DNA of 64,000 nt. Origin: an uncultured Tidjanibacter sp. GTDB taxonomy: Bacteria > Bacteroidota > Bacteroidia > Bacteroidales > Rikenellaceae. The position numbers and the translations under genes were made by a program. The notes below the pieces were generated by a model that was not told the origin of the DNA, ran no database searches, and saw only the letters and a program-made list of their open reading frames with translations. This document shows positions 55,012 through 63,657 of this stretch, piece by piece (positions within the stretch are counted from its first letter, which is position 1; each line of letters begins with the position of its first letter). The stretch is taken from positions 248,001-312,000 of the forward strand of contig CANTVF010000003.1 of the NCBI GenBank assembly GCA_947852905.1, in the 5' to 3' direction.

Positions 55012-56772
55012 TCAGCGTACTATCTTTATGTCTTTGATGCGCAACTGTGGCGTAGTCTTGCCGCGGTAATGGTTTTCGACCACCGTGTAGCAAACGTCTA
55101 TGGGCCTGCCGCCGCGTATCCATTCGTAATAGGTCGGTTGCTGGAACGCTATGGCCGCTATCGTGGTATTCGGCTTCTGTTTCTGCGTCAGGTCCATGCG
55201 CAAGTGTTCCCTTTCGGCGCCTACCAGTTTGGCGTCGCCGCGGTTACTTACGCCGCGCGTTACGAATACCGGAGCCGTATTGCCCGGCCCGAACGGCTGG
55301 AACGCTTCCAGCGTGGCGCGGAACGAAGGGGTTATGTCGCTGAACAATAGTTCGGAATCTATCTCTACCTGAGGGATAAGCATGTTCGGGTCTATGTTCG
55401 TCTCGACGTATTCGTTGAATCGTCTCGTAAACTCTTCGACGTTTTCCGGTCGCATGGTAAGACCTGCGGCATACATGTGGCCGCCGAAGTTTTCGAGCAG
55501 ATCTGCGCACGATTCCACCGCCTGATACAGGTCGAAGCCCGGCACGCTGCGGGCGGATCCCGTGACGAATCCGTTGCTCATTGTCAGCACTACCGTCGGG
55601 CGGTAGTAGGTCTCTATAAGCCGTGATGCCACTATTCCCACGATGCCTTTCATCCATTTGGGATTGTAGACGACAGTGCTTTTGAGCTCTTTATACTCAG
55701 GGTGGCTCTCTATGTAACTGTGGGCTTCCAGCGTTACGGAACGGTCTATGCTTTTGCGTGCCTGATTGCTGCTGTCGATGAAGGTGCCGAATTCGTCGGC
55801 GAGATCTTCGTTTCGCTCGACGAGAAGGTTTACGGCCGCATGTCCGCCCGACGGCGCCGATCTGTCTTCGTCACGGTCTACCGCCATACGGCCTGCAGCG
55901 TTTATTCGCGGCCCTATCTTGAATACTATATCGTCCACGGTGATCTTGTGTCCCTCCAGACCGCATATCTTGATGATCGATTGCAGCCCCTTGCGCGGAT
56001 TGTCGTTCAGTTTCCGCAGGCCGTAGTGGGCGAGTATCCTGTTTTCCCCTACCAGCGGTACTATGTCCGCGGCGGTACTCACTACCACCAGATCGAGCAG
56101 ACCGACGATTTTCTCGAACGGGATACCCTTGAGCTGGCTGTAGCCCTGCACGAGTTTGAAGCCGACACCGCATCCCGACAGCTCGTCGAAAGGATAACCG
56201 TCGTCCGGCCGCTTGGGATCGAGCACGGCCACGGCGGCGGGAATTGCGTCACCGGGAAGGTGGTGGTCGCAGATGATGAAATCTATTCCCAGCTCGTTGG
56301 CATAGGCCACTTTTTCGACAGCCTTTATTCCGCAGTCCAGCGCGATGATGAGGTTTACTCCGTTTCTTTTCGCATAATCTACACCGGTTTTGGATATGCC
56401 GTACCCTTCCGTATAACGGTCGGGTATGTAGAACAGCATATCTTTCACACCCATCTGCCTGAGGAAGATATATACCAAGGCAACGGCCGTGGTGCCGTCG
56501 ACGTCGTAATCACCGTATACCATGATCTTTTCACCATGGGTGATAGCTTGGTCGATGCGCCTCACCGCCTTGTCCATATCCTTCATCAGGAACGGGTCGT
56601 GCAGGTCGGACAGCTTGGGGCTGAAGAACCTTGAAGCTTGTTCGTAAGTGTCTATGCCTCTTTGTACGAGTAGGTTGGCAAGCACTCTGGGAATCCCGGT
56701 CGCGGCAGCCAGTTCGGCCACCTTCCGGGGATCACCCTGAGGCTTGATCACCCAACGTTTTTCGATAGGCAT
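55012..56772 (-). CDS. recJ: Single-stranded-DNA-specific exonuclease RecJ
   Basis: RecJ degrades single-stranded DNA 5' to 3' in recombination and mismatch repair. In 586 residues it shows the DHH phosphoesterase motifs VYGDYDVDGTTAV (motif I), ALDCGIK, FIICDHHLPGD (motif III, DHH) and the DHHA1 segment with NFGGHMYAAGLTM. All metal ligands of the family appear present. Its start lies inside the 3' end of lipB (41-bp overlap), and recJ is the last gene of a lipA-lipB-recJ transcript. Confidence 0.95.
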   Translation of the reverse strand: MPIEKRWVIKPQGDPRKVAELAAATGIPRVLANLLVQRGIDTYEQASRFFSPKLSDLHDPFLMKDMDKAVRRIDQAITHGEKIMVYGDYDVDGTTAVALVYIFLRQMGVKDMLFYIPDRYTEGYGISKTGVDYAKRNGVNLIIALDCGIKAVEKVAYANELGIDFIICDHHLPGDAIPAAVAVLDPKRPDDGYPFDELSGCGVGFKLVQGYSQLKGIPFEKIVGLLDLVVVSTAADIVPLVGENRILAHYGLRKLNDNPRKGLQSIIKICGLEGHKITVDDIVFKIGPRINAAGRMAVDRDEDRSAPSGGHAAVNLLVERNEDLADEFGTFIDSSNQARKSIDRSVTLEAHSYIESHPEYKELKSTVVYNPKWMKGIVGIVASRLIETYYRPTVVLTMSNGFVTGSARSVPGFDLYQAVESCADLLENFGGHMYAAGLTMRPENVEEFTRRFNEYVETNIDPNMLIPQVEIDSELLFSDITPSFRATLEAFQPFGPGNTAPVFVTRGVSNRGDAKLVGAEREHLRMDLTQKQKPNTTIAAIAFQQPTYYEWIRGGRPIDVCYTVVENHYRGKTTPQLRIKDIKIVR

Positions 56773-57466
56773 AATCTTCTATTTTTATTTTAATATTTAT
56801 AATCTTCTCCAGATGCGCCATGAACGCCATTTTGACGGCTTCCATGTCGGCCGCTTCGCCCGTTTCGCGAGCTATCGAAGTAGCCCCCCTGTCGGCGAAT
56901 CCGCACGGATTGATGTAGTCGAACCACTTCAAGTCCGTGTTGACGTTCAGCGCGAAACCGTGCATCGTGACATAACGCGACGAGCGCACTCCTATGGCTG
57001 CAATCTTGCGTAACGGGCCTTTGTCGGTAAGCCATACGCCTGCAGCACCGGCTACACGCGTACCGCTTATGCCCCATTCGGCCACCGTCCTTATGACAGC
57101 CTCTTCGAGCGAGTGTATATAGTCGCGCAATCCGATACCTTCCCGTTCGAGATCGAGTATCGGATAACCTACCAGCTGACCCGGTCCGTGAAACGTTATG
57201 TCACCGCCGCGGTCTATATGGTAAAACGATGCACCCTGTTGTTTCAGGAAATCTTCGGCCACGAGCATGTTCTCTTCGTGGCCGCTTTTGCCCAGCGTAT
57301 ATACCGCCGGGTGTTCGCAGAGCAACAAAAATTGCTCCGCTTTTATCGCAGGATCCTGCTTGGATGCCAGAAGATGCCCGAAAATGTCCTTTTGCATTTC
57401 CCAGCACTCGGCATAGTCGATAACGCCCAAGTCACGGCATATTACTGTTTCCTTCGGCGTTTCCAT
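56732..57466 (-). CDS. lipB: Octanoyl-[ACP]:protein octanoyltransferase
   Basis: LipB moves octanoyl from ACP to the lipoyl domains of 2-oxoacid dehydrogenases or GcvH. The 244 residues contain RGGDITFHGPGQLVGYP near residue 85, the acyl-binding KIAAIGVRSSRYVTMHGFAL, and the catalytic Cys in INPCGFADRGATS. The protein is slightly longer than usual at the C-terminus, where 41 bp are shared with recJ. It starts just after lipA (2 bp gap), whose product inserts sulfur into the octanoyl group, so they form a functional pair. Confidence 0.95.
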   Translation of the reverse strand: METPKETVICRDLGVIDYAECWEMQKDIFGHLLASKQDPAIKAEQFLLLCEHPAVYTLGKSGHEENMLVAEDFLKQQGASFYHIDRGGDITFHGPGQLVGYPILDLEREGIGLRDYIHSLEEAVIRTVAEWGISGTRVAGAAGVWLTDKGPLRKIAAIGVRSSRYVTMHGFALNVNTDLKWFDYINPCGFADRGATSIARETGEAADMEAVKMAFMAHLEKIINIKIKIEDYAYRKTLGDQASG

Positions 57467-57468
57467 AG

Positions 57469-58353
57469 TCAGTCTTGTTTATTTATGCTTCCCAGAGCCT
57501 GTTCGGCCAGATAGGACGAGCGTACGAGCGGCGCACTCGCCACATATTTGAATCCGCGCATTCGAGCCAGATCGCCGTACATGGCGAATTTGCCCGGCGT
57601 AACGTATTCGGCTACGGGATAATGTGCCAGCGTCGGACGCAGGTATTGACCGAGAGTCACTATCGAGCAGCCCACGTCGGCCAGATCGTCGAGCGTGCGC
57701 AGTATCTCCTCTTCCGTTTCGCCGAGACCGAGCATGATGCCGCTTTTGGCTACGGCGCCGCGCGAGGCTATGTACCGGAGCACTTCTAGCGAGGTGCGGT
57801 ATTTAGCCCGCGACCTTACCATGGGCGTGAGCCTTTCGACCGTTTCGATATTGTGCCCGATGATGTCGGGCTTGGCGTCTATGACCGTGTCGAGCATTTC
57901 GGTGCGGCCGTCGAAGTCGGGTATTAAGACTTCTATCGTTGTGGACGGATTGACTTCCCTGATCGCACGTATCACCGCAGCCCAATGGGCAGCTCCGCCG
58001 TCGGGCAGGTCGTCCCTGTCTACGGAGGTGAGTACGGCATGTTTGAGTCCCATGAGACGTATGGACTCGGCGACCTCGCGGGGTTCGCTCTCTTCTGGCG
58101 GTAGCGGCCTGCCGGTTTTTGTGGCGCAGAATTTACACGAGCGCGTGCATATGTCACCCAAAATCATGAACGTGGCTGTCCTTCTGCTCCAGCATTCCGA
58201 TTTGTTGGGACACTTGCCGCTGTCGCAGATAGTGTGCAGATGATGTTTCTCCACTATCTTGGACACGTCGGCGAATGTATCGTCGTTATGGAGTTTGATC
58301 TTGAGCCAACCGGGTTTGAGATTTTTAGCTACCTTATCGTTGTTGTAAGGCAT
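57469..58353 (-). CDS. lipA: Lipoyl synthase
   Basis: A radical-SAM enzyme that inserts two sulfurs into protein-bound octanoyl. The start MPYNNDKVAKNLKPGWLKIK gives 294 residues; 24 upstream codons are not conserved. The auxiliary cluster ligands are Cys43, Cys48 and Cys54 (CDSGKCPNKSEC), the radical-SAM ligands Cys69, Cys73 and Cys76 (CTRSCKFC), and the C-terminal Ser motif is VRSSYLAEQ. All known functional residues are present. It is the first gene of the lipA-lipB-recJ unit. Confidence 0.97.
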   Translation of the reverse strand: MPYNNDKVAKNLKPGWLKIKLHNDDTFADVSKIVEKHHLHTICDSGKCPNKSECWSRRTATFMILGDICTRSCKFCATKTGRPLPPEESEPREVAESIRLMGLKHAVLTSVDRDDLPDGGAAHWAAVIRAIREVNPSTTIEVLIPDFDGRTEMLDTVIDAKPDIIGHNIETVERLTPMVRSRAKYRTSLEVLRYIASRGAVAKSGIMLGLGETEEEILRTLDDLADVGCSIVTLGQYLRPTLAHYPVAEYVTPGKFAMYGDLARMRGFKYVASAPLVRSSYLAEQALGSINKQD

Positions 58354-58379
58354 TGTATTATTATTTTTTCCAATTGATA

Positions 58380-58797: not shown

Positions 58798-59463
58798 ATG
58801 TACGTGAAGAATAACTGGGCGTTCGTCGTCTACAAATTCGTCTTGCTTGCGGTGTGCGGTTACGGCATCGCATGCCATATGAACGGAGACTGGGCTTCGT
58901 TCAACTACTATACGGTGCTGAGCAATACGGCCTGTTTCGTCTATTTTCTCACGTCGCTGGTCGTGAACATACGCCGCATGGCCGCGGGAGAGAGTGTCGA
59001 GACGTGGCGGCCGCGCGTCGAGGGCGCCGTAGTTTTCTGTATCACCGTGACGTTTCTGATATACCATTTCGTCCTGCGCCCCGAAGCGTTCCGCATGGGT
59101 AACGACGGTAATTTCTATTCGGCCCTCAACATGGCACAGCACTACATAGTGCCTATCATGACGATCGGCGACTGGCTGCTGTTCTGCCCTAAGGGAAAAT
59201 GGCGCAAGGGCGATCCTGCCTCTTGGTTGTTGATTCCGCTGTTCTATTTCGTCTATATTTTGATCCGGGCGCCGTTCGCGGGTAACATAGGCGGTACCTC
59301 CAGCCCGTATCCCTATGCGTTCATAGATATTCAGGCCAACGGCGTAGGCGTAGTGGCGCGTAACGCATTGCTGGCGGCTGTCGGTATGCTCGCTCTGGCA
59401 TATATTCTGTATGCCGTGGATATGCTGCTCGCGCGTGCCGGGAGAAAAAGAAAAATGCGTTAG
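58798..59463 (+). CDS. Pr6Pr-type, FAR-17a/AIG1-like membrane protein
   Basis: 221 residues with six hydrophobic helices. The paired signatures FNYYTVLSN (Thr39) and NMAQHYIVPIMTIGDWLLF (His115) match the Pr6Pr family and its relatives FAR-17a/AIG1. In the human proteins AIG1 and ADTRP, a membrane Thr and His form the hydrolase site for fatty acid esters of hydroxy fatty acids. An enzymatic role here is therefore possible but inferred. It is 315 bp upstream of the 5-alpha-reductase homologue on the same strand, so a link to lipid or steroid processing is plausible. Confidence 0.72.
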   Translation: MYVKNNWAFVVYKFVLLAVCGYGIACHMNGDWASFNYYTVLSNTACFVYFLTSLVVNIRRMAAGESVETWRPRVEGAVVFCITVTFLIYHFVLRPEAFRMGNDGNFYSALNMAQHYIVPIMTIGDWLLFCPKGKWRKGDPASWLLIPLFYFVYILIRAPFAGNIGGTSSPYPYAFIDIQANGVGVVARNALLAAVGMLALAYILYAVDMLLARAGRKRKMR

Positions 59464-59507
59464 GGGCGTAACGTTTATCGTAATTTGTTATATTTACAAT
59501 CCGTAAG

Positions 59508-59542
59508 CCGCCGAAGTATACCGTCTGCGTATGTTTCGGCGG
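59508..59542 (+). terminator. Weak hairpin after the membrane-protein gene
   Basis: CCGCCGAA and TTCGGCGG pair across 19 bases, without a T tract. Otherwise 59464-59778 shows no gene or promoter I can support. Confidence 0.35.
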
Positions 59543-59778
59543 ACGGTATGTCGTATGTCCGATCGGCTCCGGCGCTTTTCCCGTTACGGTCTGTCATGGC
59601 GTTTTAGCCCGATAGTATACGCTTGACGAGTGTATGTATTTTACATTGTCCTGACATTCGTTAAGTGCGTATTGGTTTGTTGCCGGATATGGCGCGGTTT
59701 CGTAAGGCTGGATTGTTATGGCGGCAGTCGCGATGCATACCGGATTGTTAAGACGACTAAACGATAATTATTGTTGCG

Positions 59779-60540
59779 ATGCATGCTTTCAATGTACTTC
59801 TGATTACGATGACCGTATTGGCCGTCGTGGTATTCGTGGCGCTGTTCTTCGTGGATGCCGGTTACGGTATGCTGCTCGACCGCAAGTGGGGTAAAACGGT
59901 GCCGAACAAAATAGGGTGGTTCGTGATGGAAGCTCCCGTTTTCGTGGCCATGACGGTGCTGTGGCTTATGTCCGACCGTCGTTTCGAGATAACGCCGCTC
60001 TGTTTCCTGCTGCTTTTTCAGGCGCATTATTTCCAGCGGGCGTTCATATTTCCGTTCCTGCTCAAGGGACGCGGCCGCATGCCTATAGCCATAATAGCGA
60101 TGGGTATAGTGTTCAATCTCGTGAATGCCCTCATGCAGGGAGGGTGGATCTTCTATCTTTCGCCGGCCGACCGTTATACGCCGCAATGGCTGCTGACGCC
60201 GCAGTTTATCGTAGGAACGGTAATATTCATAGCGGGCATGGTGATAAACCTCCATTCCGACTACATAATCCGTCATCTTCGCAAAGACGGCGATACGGGA
60301 CATTACATACCTTACGGAGGCATGTTCCGTTACGTGAGTTCGGCCAATTATTTCGGCGAGCTGACCGAGTGGGTGGGATTCGCCATACTGACTTGGTCGT
60401 GGTCGGGTGCCGTGTTCGCTCTGTGGACTTTCGCCAATCTCGCGCCTCGCGCCGTGTCGATACGCAAACGTTACGAAGCCGAATTCGGGGACGAGTTCAG
60501 GCGTCTGAAACGTAAAAGCATAATACCATTCATTTTCTGA
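59779..60540 (+). CDS. Steroid 5-alpha-reductase family enzyme
   Basis: A 253-residue multi-helix membrane protein strikingly like human SRD5A1/2: KIGWFVMEAPVF, HYFQRAFIFPFL, NLHSDYIIRHLRK, IPYGGMFRYVSSANYFGEL, EWVGFAILTWSW and a C-terminal KSIIPFIF. Family enzymes use NADPH to reduce the 4,5 double bond of 3-oxo-delta-4 steroids to the 5-alpha form. Glu51 and Tyr84 line up with the catalytic Glu57 and Tyr91 of SRD5A2; the neighbouring Gln56 is Met here. The OYE gene starts 3 bp after its stop, so they are coupled. In gut Bacteroidales such genes were linked to allo bile acid formation; the substrate here is inferred. Confidence 0.88.
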   Translation: MHAFNVLLITMTVLAVVVFVALFFVDAGYGMLLDRKWGKTVPNKIGWFVMEAPVFVAMTVLWLMSDRRFEITPLCFLLLFQAHYFQRAFIFPFLLKGRGRMPIAIIAMGIVFNLVNALMQGGWIFYLSPADRYTPQWLLTPQFIVGTVIFIAGMVINLHSDYIIRHLRKDGDTGHYIPYGGMFRYVSSANYFGELTEWVGFAILTWSWSGAVFALWTFANLAPRAVSIRKRYEAEFGDEFRRLKRKSIIPFIF

Positions 60541-60543
60541 CGT

Positions 60544-61767
60544 ATGAAAAATTCACTTCTGTTTACGCCGGCCTCCATTGGCCCGTTGACGTTGCGTAAC
60601 CGCACGATACGGTCGGCAGCGTTCGAAAGCATGTGCGAGAATAATGCCCCGACACAGCAACTTGAGGATTACCACCGTAGCGTAGCCGCAGGCGGCATCG
60701 GAATGACCACTCTGGCGTATGCGTCGGTGACGCGCAACGGACTTTCGTTCGAGCGCCAGTTGTGGCTGCGCCGCGAGATAGTTCCTGCTTTGCGAAAGAT
60801 AACCGATGCCATACACCGCGAAGGGGCGGCAGCCTCAATACAGATAGGGCACTGCGGCAACATGTCCAAAAGGAGCGTAGCCGGCGAGATGCCCGTTTCG
60901 GCATCCGGAGGTATAAATATATATTCCCCCACTTTAGTCCGTGCGTTGCGCGAAAGCGAGATCCGCGATATAGCGCGCGCTTTCGGCGAGGCTACGTCGT
61001 TGGCTCGCGAAGCCGGATTCGATGCGGTAGAGATGCATGCCGGTCACGGCTATCTGCTCAGCCAGTTCCTGTCGCCGTATACCAATCATCGTCGCGACAG
61101 TTACGGAGGTTCGCTCGCCAACCGGATGCGTTTCATGAACATGGCCCTTTCGGAGGTCATGACGGCTGCCGGCGGCGATATGGCCGTGCTTGTCAAGACC
61201 AATATGCGCGACGGATTCAAGGGGGGCATAGAGATCGACGAAGGTCTTGAGATAGCCAAGGAGCTGGAGCGGGGCGGCGCTCATGCGCTCGTGCTGAGCG
61301 GCGGTTTCGTGAGCCGTGCACCCATGTATGTTATGCGCGGAGAGATGCCGATAAAGACTTTGACTCATTATATGAATTGCTGGTGGCTTAAGGCCGGTGT
61401 CCGCATGTTCGGTCGCATGATGATACCGTCGGTGCCGTTCAAGGAGTGTTATTTTCTCGACGACGCTCTCAAGTTCCGTCGGGAACTGAAACTGCCGCTG
61501 GTGTATGTGGGCGGAATAGTGAATCGCGGCAACATAGAGACGGTGCTCGGCAACGGATTCGAGTTCGTGCAGATGGGGCGGTCGTTGATTACCCAACCCG
61601 ACTTTGTAAACCGTATGAGGGAACATGACGACGATCCGTGTTACGGCAGCGGTTGCGAACACAAGAATTACTGTATCGCACGCATGTACACGATAGACAT
61701 GAAGTGTTACAAGGACGTGCCCGACATGCCTGCCAAACTGAAACGCGAGATAGACGGCGTACATTGA
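60544..61767 (+). CDS. Old-yellow-enzyme-type NADH:flavin oxidoreductase (candidate 5-beta-reductase)
   Basis: 407 residues covering the FMN TIM barrel of the OYE family: LFTPASIGPLTLRNRTIRS, QIGHCGNMSKR, DAVEMHAGHGYLLSQFLSP and RRDSYGGSLANR (substrate and FMN site), VGGIVNRGN and FVQMGRSLI. The C-terminus has four Cys in the order C-x4-C-x5-C-x10-C, which may bind an iron-sulfur cluster, but the spacing differs from 2,4-dienoyl-CoA reductase and BaiCD, and the FAD/NAD domains of those enzymes are absent. Three bases separate it from the 5-alpha-reductase gene. Together they could interconvert 3-oxo-5-beta, delta-4 and 5-alpha steroids. Reaction direction is inferred. Confidence 0.85.
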   Translation: MKNSLLFTPASIGPLTLRNRTIRSAAFESMCENNAPTQQLEDYHRSVAAGGIGMTTLAYASVTRNGLSFERQLWLRREIVPALRKITDAIHREGAAASIQIGHCGNMSKRSVAGEMPVSASGGINIYSPTLVRALRESEIRDIARAFGEATSLAREAGFDAVEMHAGHGYLLSQFLSPYTNHRRDSYGGSLANRMRFMNMALSEVMTAAGGDMAVLVKTNMRDGFKGGIEIDEGLEIAKELERGGAHALVLSGGFVSRAPMYVMRGEMPIKTLTHYMNCWWLKAGVRMFGRMMIPSVPFKECYFLDDALKFRRELKLPLVYVGGIVNRGNIETVLGNGFEFVQMGRSLITQPDFVNRMREHDDDPCYGSGCEHKNYCIARMYTIDMKCYKDVPDMPAKLKREIDGVH

Positions 61768-62129
61768 CGCGAATGCCTGACGCTGGTTGTAGCGGCCGTT
61801 GTTTCAGATCGTTTCTCCGGCGGTTTCGTGCGGGCGGCGTGCCGGTGACAGGCGTTGCGCGCAGACTTTTCCGTAACGGTGCAGGGGATGGCCGTGCCTT
61901 CGAGAGAGATTACTGTACCGTTACGATATGGATTTGTGCGGATTTATCGGAAATGCTGCTTGCTGCATTTTCGCGGCATCAGGGATGAAATGTCTGTCTG
62001 TTCGTTGTATGTGTTACGCGTGACCGGGTTATAAAATCATGTCGGATTTTTTTGTACGGCAGTAACTGTCGTTGCGAATCGTTTCCCGATAGTTTCGGAG
62101 TATTTGCTTTAGTGATTTTTCTGGACGGA
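61768..62129. other. Gap between the OYE and SDR genes
   Basis: About 360 bp with no supported gene, hairpin or consensus promoter. The SDR may still be read from the upstream transcript. Confidence 0.4.
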
Positions 62130-62942
62130 ATGAATAAGTCGTATAGTACAAATGGCCATGGCGACCTTTGGGCTGTGGTGACGGGGGCCGGTTCCGGTAT
62201 AGGATTGGCTTTCGCTCGTAATCTCGCCGGCCGCGGATACAATATATTCGCAGTAGGGCGGGAGATGGAACGTCTCCTGACGTGCCGCAGCGAGTTGGAA
62301 TCCCGTTACGGGGTGAGGGTCGTTGCCGAAAGTATGGATCTGGCCTGTCCCGATTCCGCCGAACGGCTTTACGAACGTTATCTCGCAGCGGGAATCAGGG
62401 CGCAGGTGCTTGTAAACGATGCCGGAATGTTCATTTACAACGACATACTCGACACTTCGCAGGATAGAATAGATGCCATACTGATGTTGCATATACGCAC
62501 CGTAGCGACGTTGTGCCGGCTGTTCGCTGCGGATATGGCCTCTTCCGGTGGCGGACATATCGTGAACATGGCGTCGTATTCGGTATGGATGCCTTATCCC
62601 GGTATTGCGTTGTACAGCGCTACCAAGGCTTTCGTGAAGACGTTCTCCGTAGCCTTCGCTAAGGAGGTGTGCGAATGCGGCGTATCGGTTACGGCGGTGT
62701 CTCCTGCAGGTGTGGCTACCGATTTTTACGGTCTTCCGTCGAAACTTCAGAAGCTGGGGCGCAGGCTCGGAGTGTTGTTGACGCCCGATGCCGTGGCACG
62801 CAAGTCTTTGAAGGCGGCTTTCCGCGGCCGCAGGCACATAGTGCCCGGCTGGTATAACCGCATATTCATCCCCCTGTTGCAGCACATGCCCTCGTCGTGC
62901 GTGCGGCTGATAAGGCGCGAAACAAAACGATTCATGCGCTGA
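62130..62942 (+). CDS. Classical SDR, candidate hydroxysteroid dehydrogenase
   Basis: 270 residues from the start MNKSYSTNGHGDLWAVVTG; an earlier in-frame start at 62052 adds an unlikely extension. Cofactor loop TGAGSGIG (19-25 region), NDAGMF in place of the usual NNAG, the Ser of NMASYSVW and Tyr162-x3-Lys166 in YSATKAF make an active SDR likely. The C-terminal part (KLGRRLGVLLTPDAVARKSL, basic end RRETKRFMR) could contact the membrane. The position behind a 5-alpha-reductase and an OYE fits a 3-hydroxysteroid dehydrogenase that completes the iso/allo conversion; this comes from context. Confidence 0.8.
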   Translation: MNKSYSTNGHGDLWAVVTGAGSGIGLAFARNLAGRGYNIFAVGREMERLLTCRSELESRYGVRVVAESMDLACPDSAERLYERYLAAGIRAQVLVNDAGMFIYNDILDTSQDRIDAILMLHIRTVATLCRLFAADMASSGGGHIVNMASYSVWMPYPGIALYSATKAFVKTFSVAFAKEVCECGVSVTAVSPAGVATDFYGLPSKLQKLGRRLGVLLTPDAVARKSLKAAFRGRRHIVPGWYNRIFIPLLQHMPSSCVRLIRRETKRFMR

Positions 62943-63008
62943 TTGTTATGCCGGCATATACGGCGGAGAGTTGCCGACCGTGCATACAGGAACGGTAGTG
63001 ATATACCT

Positions 63009-63043
63009 GAAAAGGGAGGCCTTAGCGAAGACCTCCCTTTTCC
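63009..63043 (-). terminator. Terminator of efp, also facing the SDR
   Basis: GAAAAGGGAGG-CCTT pairs with AAGA-CCTCCCTTTTC around 3 bases, with A/T flanks. It separates the converging SDR and efp genes. Confidence 0.8.
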
Positions 63044-63090
63044 ATGTGTCGGACGACACTTGCCGGAATGTTTGCCGGCTGGTCGTTTCG

Positions 63091-63657
63091 TTATTTTATC
63101 CTTTCGTAGTATTCGCGGGTGCGAGTGTCTACGCGTATCTTGTCGCCGGTGTTGATGAACAGGGGCACCTTAACCGTTGCGCCGGTGTTTACCGTAGCGG
63201 CTTTCAACGAGTTGGAGGATGCCGTATCGCCCTTGATGCCGGGTTCGGTATAGGTTACCTCCATGTCTACGATAGGGGGCAGCTCGGCCGACAGAACGAT
63301 CTCCTTGTCAGTGTGAAACATTACCTCCACGATCTGGCCGTCGGTCATCAGGTCTGCGTTTTCGATCATCTTCTTGTCTATGGTGATCTCCTCGAATGTT
63401 TCCGTGTGCATGAAGTGCGCGCCGAGGTCGTCCTCATAGGTGAACTGGTAGGGGCGGCGTTCCACGCGTACCGGCTCTATCTTTTCGCCTGCCGAAAAGG
63501 TCTTTTCGAGGATACGTCCGTTTTCGAGGTTTTTGAGTTTGGTACGCACGAATGCGGGACCCTTGCCCGGTTTTACGTGCAGGAATTCCACGACGCTCAC
63601 CGTCTTGCCGTCGAGTTCGATGCACATGCCGTTCTTTATGTCTGCTGTTGTTGCCAT
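63091..63657 (-). CDS. efp: Elongation factor P
   Basis: EF-P relieves ribosome stalling at consecutive prolines. The 188 residues form the usual three domains: a KOW-like N-terminal domain with Lys32 at the modified tip ([10 protein letters not shown]), the central OB domain ([20 protein letters not shown]-like, read in parts), and the C-terminal OB domain ending [16 protein letters not shown]. The tip is Lys, so a lysine-type modification could apply, but no modifying gene is in view. A promoter-like TAACTTTG lies upstream. Confidence 0.97.

Follow-up and report, generated by a model that had tools for sequence, protein, structure and literature searches.

A candidate cluster for C-5 remodelling of bile acids or related 3-keto steroids in Tidjanibacter

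Described clusters and the Tidjanibacter locus

Conversion of 5-beta 3-oxolithocholic acid (3-oxoLCA) to isoallolithocholic acid (isoalloLCA) by Bacteroidota is described in excerpts of reviews that include PMC10382948, where effects of isoalloLCA on T cells and Gram-positive pathogens are also reported. The same excerpt credits Honda and colleagues with strains of Parabacteroides merdae, Odoribacter laneus and Bacteroides dorei that turn 3-oxo-delta-4-LCA into isoalloLCA, and states that disruption of the steroid 5-alpha-reductase (5AR) in P. merdae prevents formation of allo-LCA derivatives. The P. merdae 5AR is clustered there with a predicted 3-beta-hydroxysteroid dehydrogenase and a BaiCD/BaiH-like flavin oxidoreductase, the latter hypothesised to be the 5-beta-reductase (5BR). 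This ‘indirect pathway’ cluster of Bacteroidota is attributed to Sato 2021 in the excerpt of PMC10382948 and to Li 2021 in an excerpt of PMC12697870. Further excerpts describe the 5AR of Bacteroidetes as membrane-associated (PMC9645264), place an Alistipes sp. and Odoribacteraceae among the 5AR carriers (PMC12789469) and record an annotated 5AR gene in all of the chicken Bacteroidetes isolates studied there except two Odoribacter and one Parabacteroides distasonis (PMC6069880). A gene set of this kind is described here from an uncultured Tidjanibacter sp. (Rikenellaceae). It lies in a stretch of 64,000 nucleotides from contig CANTVF010000003.1 (assembly GCA_947852905.1), called the window, to which all coordinates refer. 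A literature search on Tidjanibacter and steroids gave no paper on such a cluster, as judged by title. Reference 107 of PMC10382948, its source for the work of Honda and colleagues, is taken here to be Sato 2021.

At the right end of the window, genes for a membrane steroid 5AR homologue (59779–60540; 253 aa), a single-domain Old Yellow Enzyme-type FMN oxidoreductase (OYE; 60544–61767; 407 aa) and a short-chain dehydrogenase/reductase (SDR; 62130–62942; 270 aa) follow one another on the forward strand. The set is a Tidjanibacter copy of the already described kind of cluster, and probably serves as an ‘indirect pathway’ for inverting C-5 of 3-oxo bile acids or related 3-keto steroids. The OYE is the candidate 3-oxo-5-beta-steroid delta-4 oxidoreductase (5BR). 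In the second step the membrane 5AR would add a hydride from NADPH to C-5 on the alpha face, giving a flat 3-oxo-allo product, and in the third the SDR would reduce the 3-oxo group, probably to a 3-beta-hydroxyl (the isoallo product). If functional, the cluster makes Tidjanibacter a further producer, among the Bacteroidales, of bile acids with the flat (allo/isoallo) shape or of 5-alpha steroids. The original prediction of a steroid or bile acid 5-alpha remodelling cluster is thus partly supported, with a substrate that is inferred.

The 5AR homologue, OYE and SDR are where that prediction placed them, on one strand and in the families it named, and its likeness to the Bacteroidales isoallo-LCA cluster is borne out by the same three-part cluster in the excerpt of PMC10382948. 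The 5AR and OYE genes are adjacent on the same strand, the feature by which a Bacteroidales cluster of the isoallo-LCA type is recognised here, and just 3 bp separate the stop codon of the first from the ATG of the second. The SDR begins at the ATG at 62130, the listed start at 62052 being a TTG extension. The 5AR belongs to PF02544 (E 3.8e-45, 154 bits against a cut-off of 22.6), and phmmer against the PDB finds the SRD5A structures 7c83 (194 bits, E 2.4e-56) and 7bw1 (143 bits). Four SRD5A segments are kept in nearly all of 81 copies: ME.PVF in 81, HY.QR in 77, N..SD in 79 and SANY.GE in 80. Residues within these segments are presumably catalytic. The closest named relatives, Tidjanibacter metagenome-assembled genomes (MAGs), encode a 5AR 79–83% identical to that of the window, which points to a Tidjanibacter-like gut bacterium as the host.

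Conservation of the unit and the place of the SDR

A scan of named genomes gave 356 places encoding a 5AR relative, of which the best 80 were kept as loci (four being contigs of the same genus) and their neighbours counted as homologues when scoring above 90 bits. Of the 80 loci, 69 have an OYE gene on the strand of the 5AR gene and no more than 300 bp downstream of it; where 1500 bp or more is available downstream, 67 of 76 do. The OYE is in turn followed by an SDR gene within 400 bp in 61/80, or 60/75 where at least 2700 bp is available. The 11 loci lacking an OYE in this position comprise two contig ends (L087, and L017 with a partial OYE under the cut), three displaced OYEs (L019, L026, L069) and six without a detected OYE. 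These last (L049, L051, L055, L059, L072, L076) are close 5AR relatives with no OYE found in the fetched flank; on their own, these 5ARs may work with a different partner or serve a different role. Since the gene order is conserved across genera, the arrangement is not a matter of chance, and with the active-site motifs kept it upholds the enzyme classes and A-ring chemistry originally proposed.

An order-wide sample of 295 genomes shows the unit to be widespread but patchy in Bacteroidales. A 5AR match at E 0.001 is present in 76 of them and reaches at least 280 bits in 35; an OYE of at least 450 bits, or split, is present in 40. Both genes exceed these cuts in 34 genomes and are adjacent (within 600 bp) in 29, counting the genome of the window and two of its genus. 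Among the remaining five, the genes are on different contigs in G026, G142 and G239, G170 has its OYE in pieces on two contigs, and 2.2 kb separates the two genes in G263. One genome (G024) has a 5AR but no OYE above the cut, and six have the reverse.

Little else travels with the three genes. When as many as seven ORFs flanking the 5AR on each side were clustered, in 63 of the 80 loci (the 5AR of the other 17 being missed by the greedy ORF caller), no family beyond 5AR, OYE and SDR turned up in more than nine loci, some clusters being antisense shadows. Further pathway genes near the 5AR, considered as an extension of the unit, were accordingly rejected. Three loci carry other taxonomic titles: L023, L067 and L076 (Lachnospiraceae, Pseudoflavonifractor and Proteobacteria MAGs, respectively) encode a Bacteroidales-type 5AR, L023 and L067 with OYE and SDR as well. 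These are probably mislabelled or mixed bins, with transfer as the alternative.

The distribution of the unit also bears on whether its substrate is a steroid at all. The family names could mislead and the substrate be an enone among the bacterium's own lipids rather than a steroid, a reading with which conservation in several genera, two genomes titled rumen or reticulum among them, and a weak 5AR match to the very-long-chain enoyl-CoA reductase 22of_A (E 3.9e-7) are compatible. However, the 5AR is far closer to SRD5A 7c83 than to that enzyme, the unit is missing from most of the 295 genomes, unlike a core lipid pathway, and 5AR disruption changes bile acids (PMC10382948, in excerpt), so that such a role is very improbable.

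Within the genus, 5AR is found in six of 23 genomes, and exactly these hold an SDR at least 64% identical to that of the window; in the other genomes no long SDR match exceeds 46% identity, and a 78-residue piece in G022 reaches 50%. A tree of RecJ, found in 22 of the 23, puts the six genomes in one clade (100/100). This indicates a single lineage event, and co-occurrence in the genus was therefore dropped as independent evidence.

The SDR (PF00106, E 3.4e-37) is the least tightly placed member of the unit in Tidjanibacter. Of the 63 named loci with an SDR, 59 have its start no more than 60 bp past the OYE stop or have the two genes overlapping, and the spacer is 10 bp in the relatives L013 (genome G006) and L011 (G015). 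The 362-bp spacer of the window (61768–62129, forward strand) is thus unusual, and its best DNA match in nine fetched stretches has an E of 0.11. On its other side the SDR adjoins the gene for EF-P (63091–63657, reverse strand; named by a family match), so that it touches both neighbours. In two relatives the SDR lies far from the OYE on the opposite strand, beside EF-P (about 26 kb away in G003 and 22 kb in G010), and in G014 it is about 44 kb away. The SDR–EF-P adjacency is common to the window (62130–63657) and to G003 and G010 (loci L115 and L116). An SDR beside EF-P yet far from 5AR–OYE points to local rearrangement, and inversions starting from a layout like that of the window could have produced the others.

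Twenty-four SDRs were placed in a tree: 17 taken from the 63 in clusters, six from Tidjanibacter and one paralogue. The SDR of the window groups there with the five others of Tidjanibacter (100/99), and these with cluster SDRs of Rikenellaceae (89/82, or 97/92 with L070). This grouping identifies it as a cluster SDR whose linkage has been loosened by local rearrangement. Its membership of the cluster, as first proposed, therefore stands on descent, while the linkage is loose, 362 bp off and beside EF-P; the orthology extends through Rikenellaceae, and the 3-beta specificity is a candidate one. The motifs TG..SGIG and Y...K occur in 41 and 61 of 64 SDRs, respectively.

Additional SDRs are not rare. 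Of the 63 parsed loci, 44 together have 66 SDR ORFs, and a second, divergent SDR, 23–29% identical to that of the window, follows the first in L030, L037, L045, L046, L056, L060 and L073. The genome of the window has a second SDR of its own (L118, G000:C8:80680-81438), 36% identical to the first and nearer in the tree to cluster SDRs of Butyricimonas and Sanguibacteroides (83/82).

The flavoenzyme and the direction of its step

The cluster OYE (PF00724, E 1.7e-52) is the only OYE gene found at E 0.001 in its genome (2.24 Mb in 17 contigs). Its H165, H168 and Y170 align with the active-site motif of YqjM, from which it differs by an insertion of some 37 residues (267–303) that includes a hydrophobic stretch. 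Motifs were compared over 70 sequences, the window OYE and the 69 copies from the named loci that reach 390 aa (the shorter L018, L068 and L081 being dropped). Four cysteines, C104, C371, C377 and C388, are invariant in all 70, C104 within GHCGN and the others within a C-terminal tail (371–388), C.H..YC..RMY...M.C, both of which are kept throughout; C366 is poorly kept (3%). Multi-domain OYEs have an Fe-S region after the barrel, and the cysteines of the cluster OYE recall it, but their spacing (C371-x5-C377-x10-C388) differs.

An AlphaFold model made from 24 of the 70 sequences gives an OYE barrel at a mean pLDDT of 84.4, with the cysteine tail at about 52–60. In a Foldseek search with this model, 2-naphthoyl-CoA reductase takes ranks 4 and 9 (TMq 0.79), single-domain OYEs in the top ten reach 0.73–0.75, and other multi-domain OYEs are no or barely better (6qkg_B 0.76, 1ps9 0.74, 2tmd 0.73). 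As a pointer to likeness with multi-domain, Fe-S-containing OYEs, this ranking from a predicted model is suggestive at most.

The best curated models for the OYE, mycofact_OYE_2 and BaiCD, both match far under their cut-offs. The BaiCD profile NF041087 gives 177.4 bits, below its 825-bit equivalog cut-off, and the match is limited to residues 6–262 of the 407-aa protein against a 642-position model. BaiCD has a C-terminal flavin/nucleotide domain, for which the length of the OYE and the extent of the match leave no room. Beside the catalytic tyrosine, G169 and Q174 are present in 70/70; the two positions, taken from section 9 of PMC12238238 by anchoring on the tyrosine rather than by a full ci2350 alignment, are N and S in the Clostridium steroid 5-beta-reductase and mostly Y/S and E in BaiCD (PMC12238238). 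The words Bacteroid, Parabacteroides, Odoribacter and Alistipes are absent from the main text of that paper. A single-domain OYE with four invariant cysteines and neither published reductase signature is possibly new.

These features can be drawn together in a broader proposal, that the Bacteroidales cluster OYE represents a separate, undescribed class of flavoenzyme, a lone FMN barrel in which the cysteine tail and C104 may together bind an Fe-S centre or form a redox thiol site. Lacking the FAD/NAD domain found in BaiCD, such an enzyme would exchange electrons with a separate partner, and its wider substrates would be dietary 3-keto steroids, as copies from rumen and reticulum suggest. We regard the whole as quite unlikely; if true, it would make steroid A-ring desaturation a possible electron source for the cell.

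The direction of the step can be read in two ways. The 5AR and OYE could be alternative reductases of one delta-4-3-keto intermediate, giving 5-alpha and 5-beta products, respectively, with the steroid detoxified or used as an electron sink and no line of isomerisation from 5-beta to 5-alpha. The solved relatives of the OYE are mostly named reductases and the two genes are nearly contiguous, as this would lead one to expect. However, the reviews excerpted here, PMC10382948 among them, report that Bacteroidota convert 5-beta 3-oxoLCA to isoalloLCA, which requires that the OYE-type step run oxidatively, and a pair of alternative reductases is fairly unlikely. In the favoured ‘indirect pathway’, the cluster OYE would accordingly desaturate the A ring.

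Substrates, neighbours and known systems

Several points weigh against bile acids, or against the ‘indirect pathway’ as a whole. In none of the 70 sequences does the OYE carry the signature of BaiCD or that of the Clostridium steroid 5-beta-reductase. Beyond Rikenellaceae, the identity of cluster SDRs to that of the window falls to about 35–49%, too low to be sure that all share a single function. The comparison with the characterised P. merdae and O. laneus enzymes is one of class and clustering; none of the 80 named loci is titled Parabacteroides or Odoribacter, and the relatives among them are at family level (L024, L060). PF02275 bile salt hydrolase was not found in the genome of the window, which makes conjugated bile acids unlikely first substrates. 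Finally, the unit is present in MAGs titled Sheep_Reticulum (L054; 5AR–OYE–SDR) and Yak_Rumen (L086; 5AR–OYE, with no SDR scoring above the cut). Neither rumen nor reticulum is a site where bile acids would be expected, and the unit may therefore also serve other 3-keto steroids. Four more loci, presumably from rumen genomes, bear RUG names: 5AR, OYE and SDR are all present in L062 and 5AR–OYE in L089, the OYE of L019 is displaced, and L087 is at a contig end.

The same A-ring chemistry could thus have other 3-keto steroids as its natural substrates, host steroid hormones or ketones of dietary plant or animal sterols, with bile acids incidental. The rumen and reticulum copies and the unmatched OYE signature speak for this. 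Against it, Bacteroidota strains convert bile acids and derivatives are lost on 5AR disruption in P. merdae (PMC10382948, in excerpt), a pre-gastric site is named outright in only two of the 80 titles, and MAG binning can err. The proposal has a considerable chance of being right, if a somewhat smaller one than of being wrong. The 5AR–OYE pair in genomes with rumen and reticulum titles is possibly new, and makes the natural substrate a directly testable question; this substrate and the uncharacterised architecture of the OYE are where the remaining interest of the unit lies.

The gene preceding the 5AR encodes a Pr6Pr-family membrane protein (58798–59463, forward strand; 221 aa; NF038065, E 5.6e-21, 75.4 bits against a cut-off of 30). 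All four ORFs were verified at these coordinates and are co-oriented, with third-position GC of 0.64–0.70 and 315 bp between the Pr6Pr and 5AR genes. The original prediction counted this protein as a new cluster member, which its distribution does not bear out. Relatives occur in five of the 23 genus genomes, all within the 5AR-containing clade (five of the six 5AR genomes, G010 having none found), and lie 63–94 bp from the 5AR in G015 and G006, about 1.1 kb away in G014 and 4.3 kb in G003. Among the 80 named loci, tblastn at 1e-5 detected the protein in three (L011–L013, same-genus contigs); the remaining 77, some of them with little sequence upstream, gave no match. In this lineage it may belong with the cluster, as a neighbour of uncertain relevance outside the general unit. 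A tight four-gene operon is ruled out by the variable Pr6Pr–5AR distance and the displaced SDR of relatives. The accompanying description as ‘lipid-ester hydrolase-like’ is likewise not supported by any match: the protein has no Pfam match at E 0.01, no AIG1/ADTRP-type hydrolase is among the eight weak Pfam families listed for five Pr6Pr members (E up to 10), and there is no PDB sequence match at E 1, a search that could miss remote kinship. Further upstream, on the reverse strand, are genes named from sequence as LipB (56732–57466) and LipA (57469–58359, with a radical SAM match), and RecJ, named in the same way, lies upstream of the four ORFs on the opposite strand. A tRNA scan of the whole window gave no genes.

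Among known systems, the closest is the isoallo-LCA cluster of P. merdae and Odoribacteraceae, with which the Tidjanibacter genes share a membrane 5AR, a BaiCD/BaiH-like OYE and an SDR clustered in a Bacteroidales genome. Two Odoribacteraceae loci (L024 and L060, Butyricimonas) have the same 5AR–OYE–SDR order; the window differs in that the SDR is set off beside EF-P and that a Pr6Pr gene precedes. The OYE shares its barrel and a profile match with BaiCD, the 3-oxo-delta-4 bile acid oxidoreductase of Clostridium scindens, but has G169 and Q174 where BaiCD has mostly Y/S and E. With ci2350 of Clostridium innocuum it shares the OYE superfamily and the catalytic tyrosine, but N166 and S171 of that enzyme are again replaced by G169 and Q174, which places it outside that clade as defined by these residues. 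The 5AR aligns with the SRD5A structures 7c83 and 7bw1 over nearly its full length, conserved segments included, and differs from them in being linked to an OYE and an SDR.

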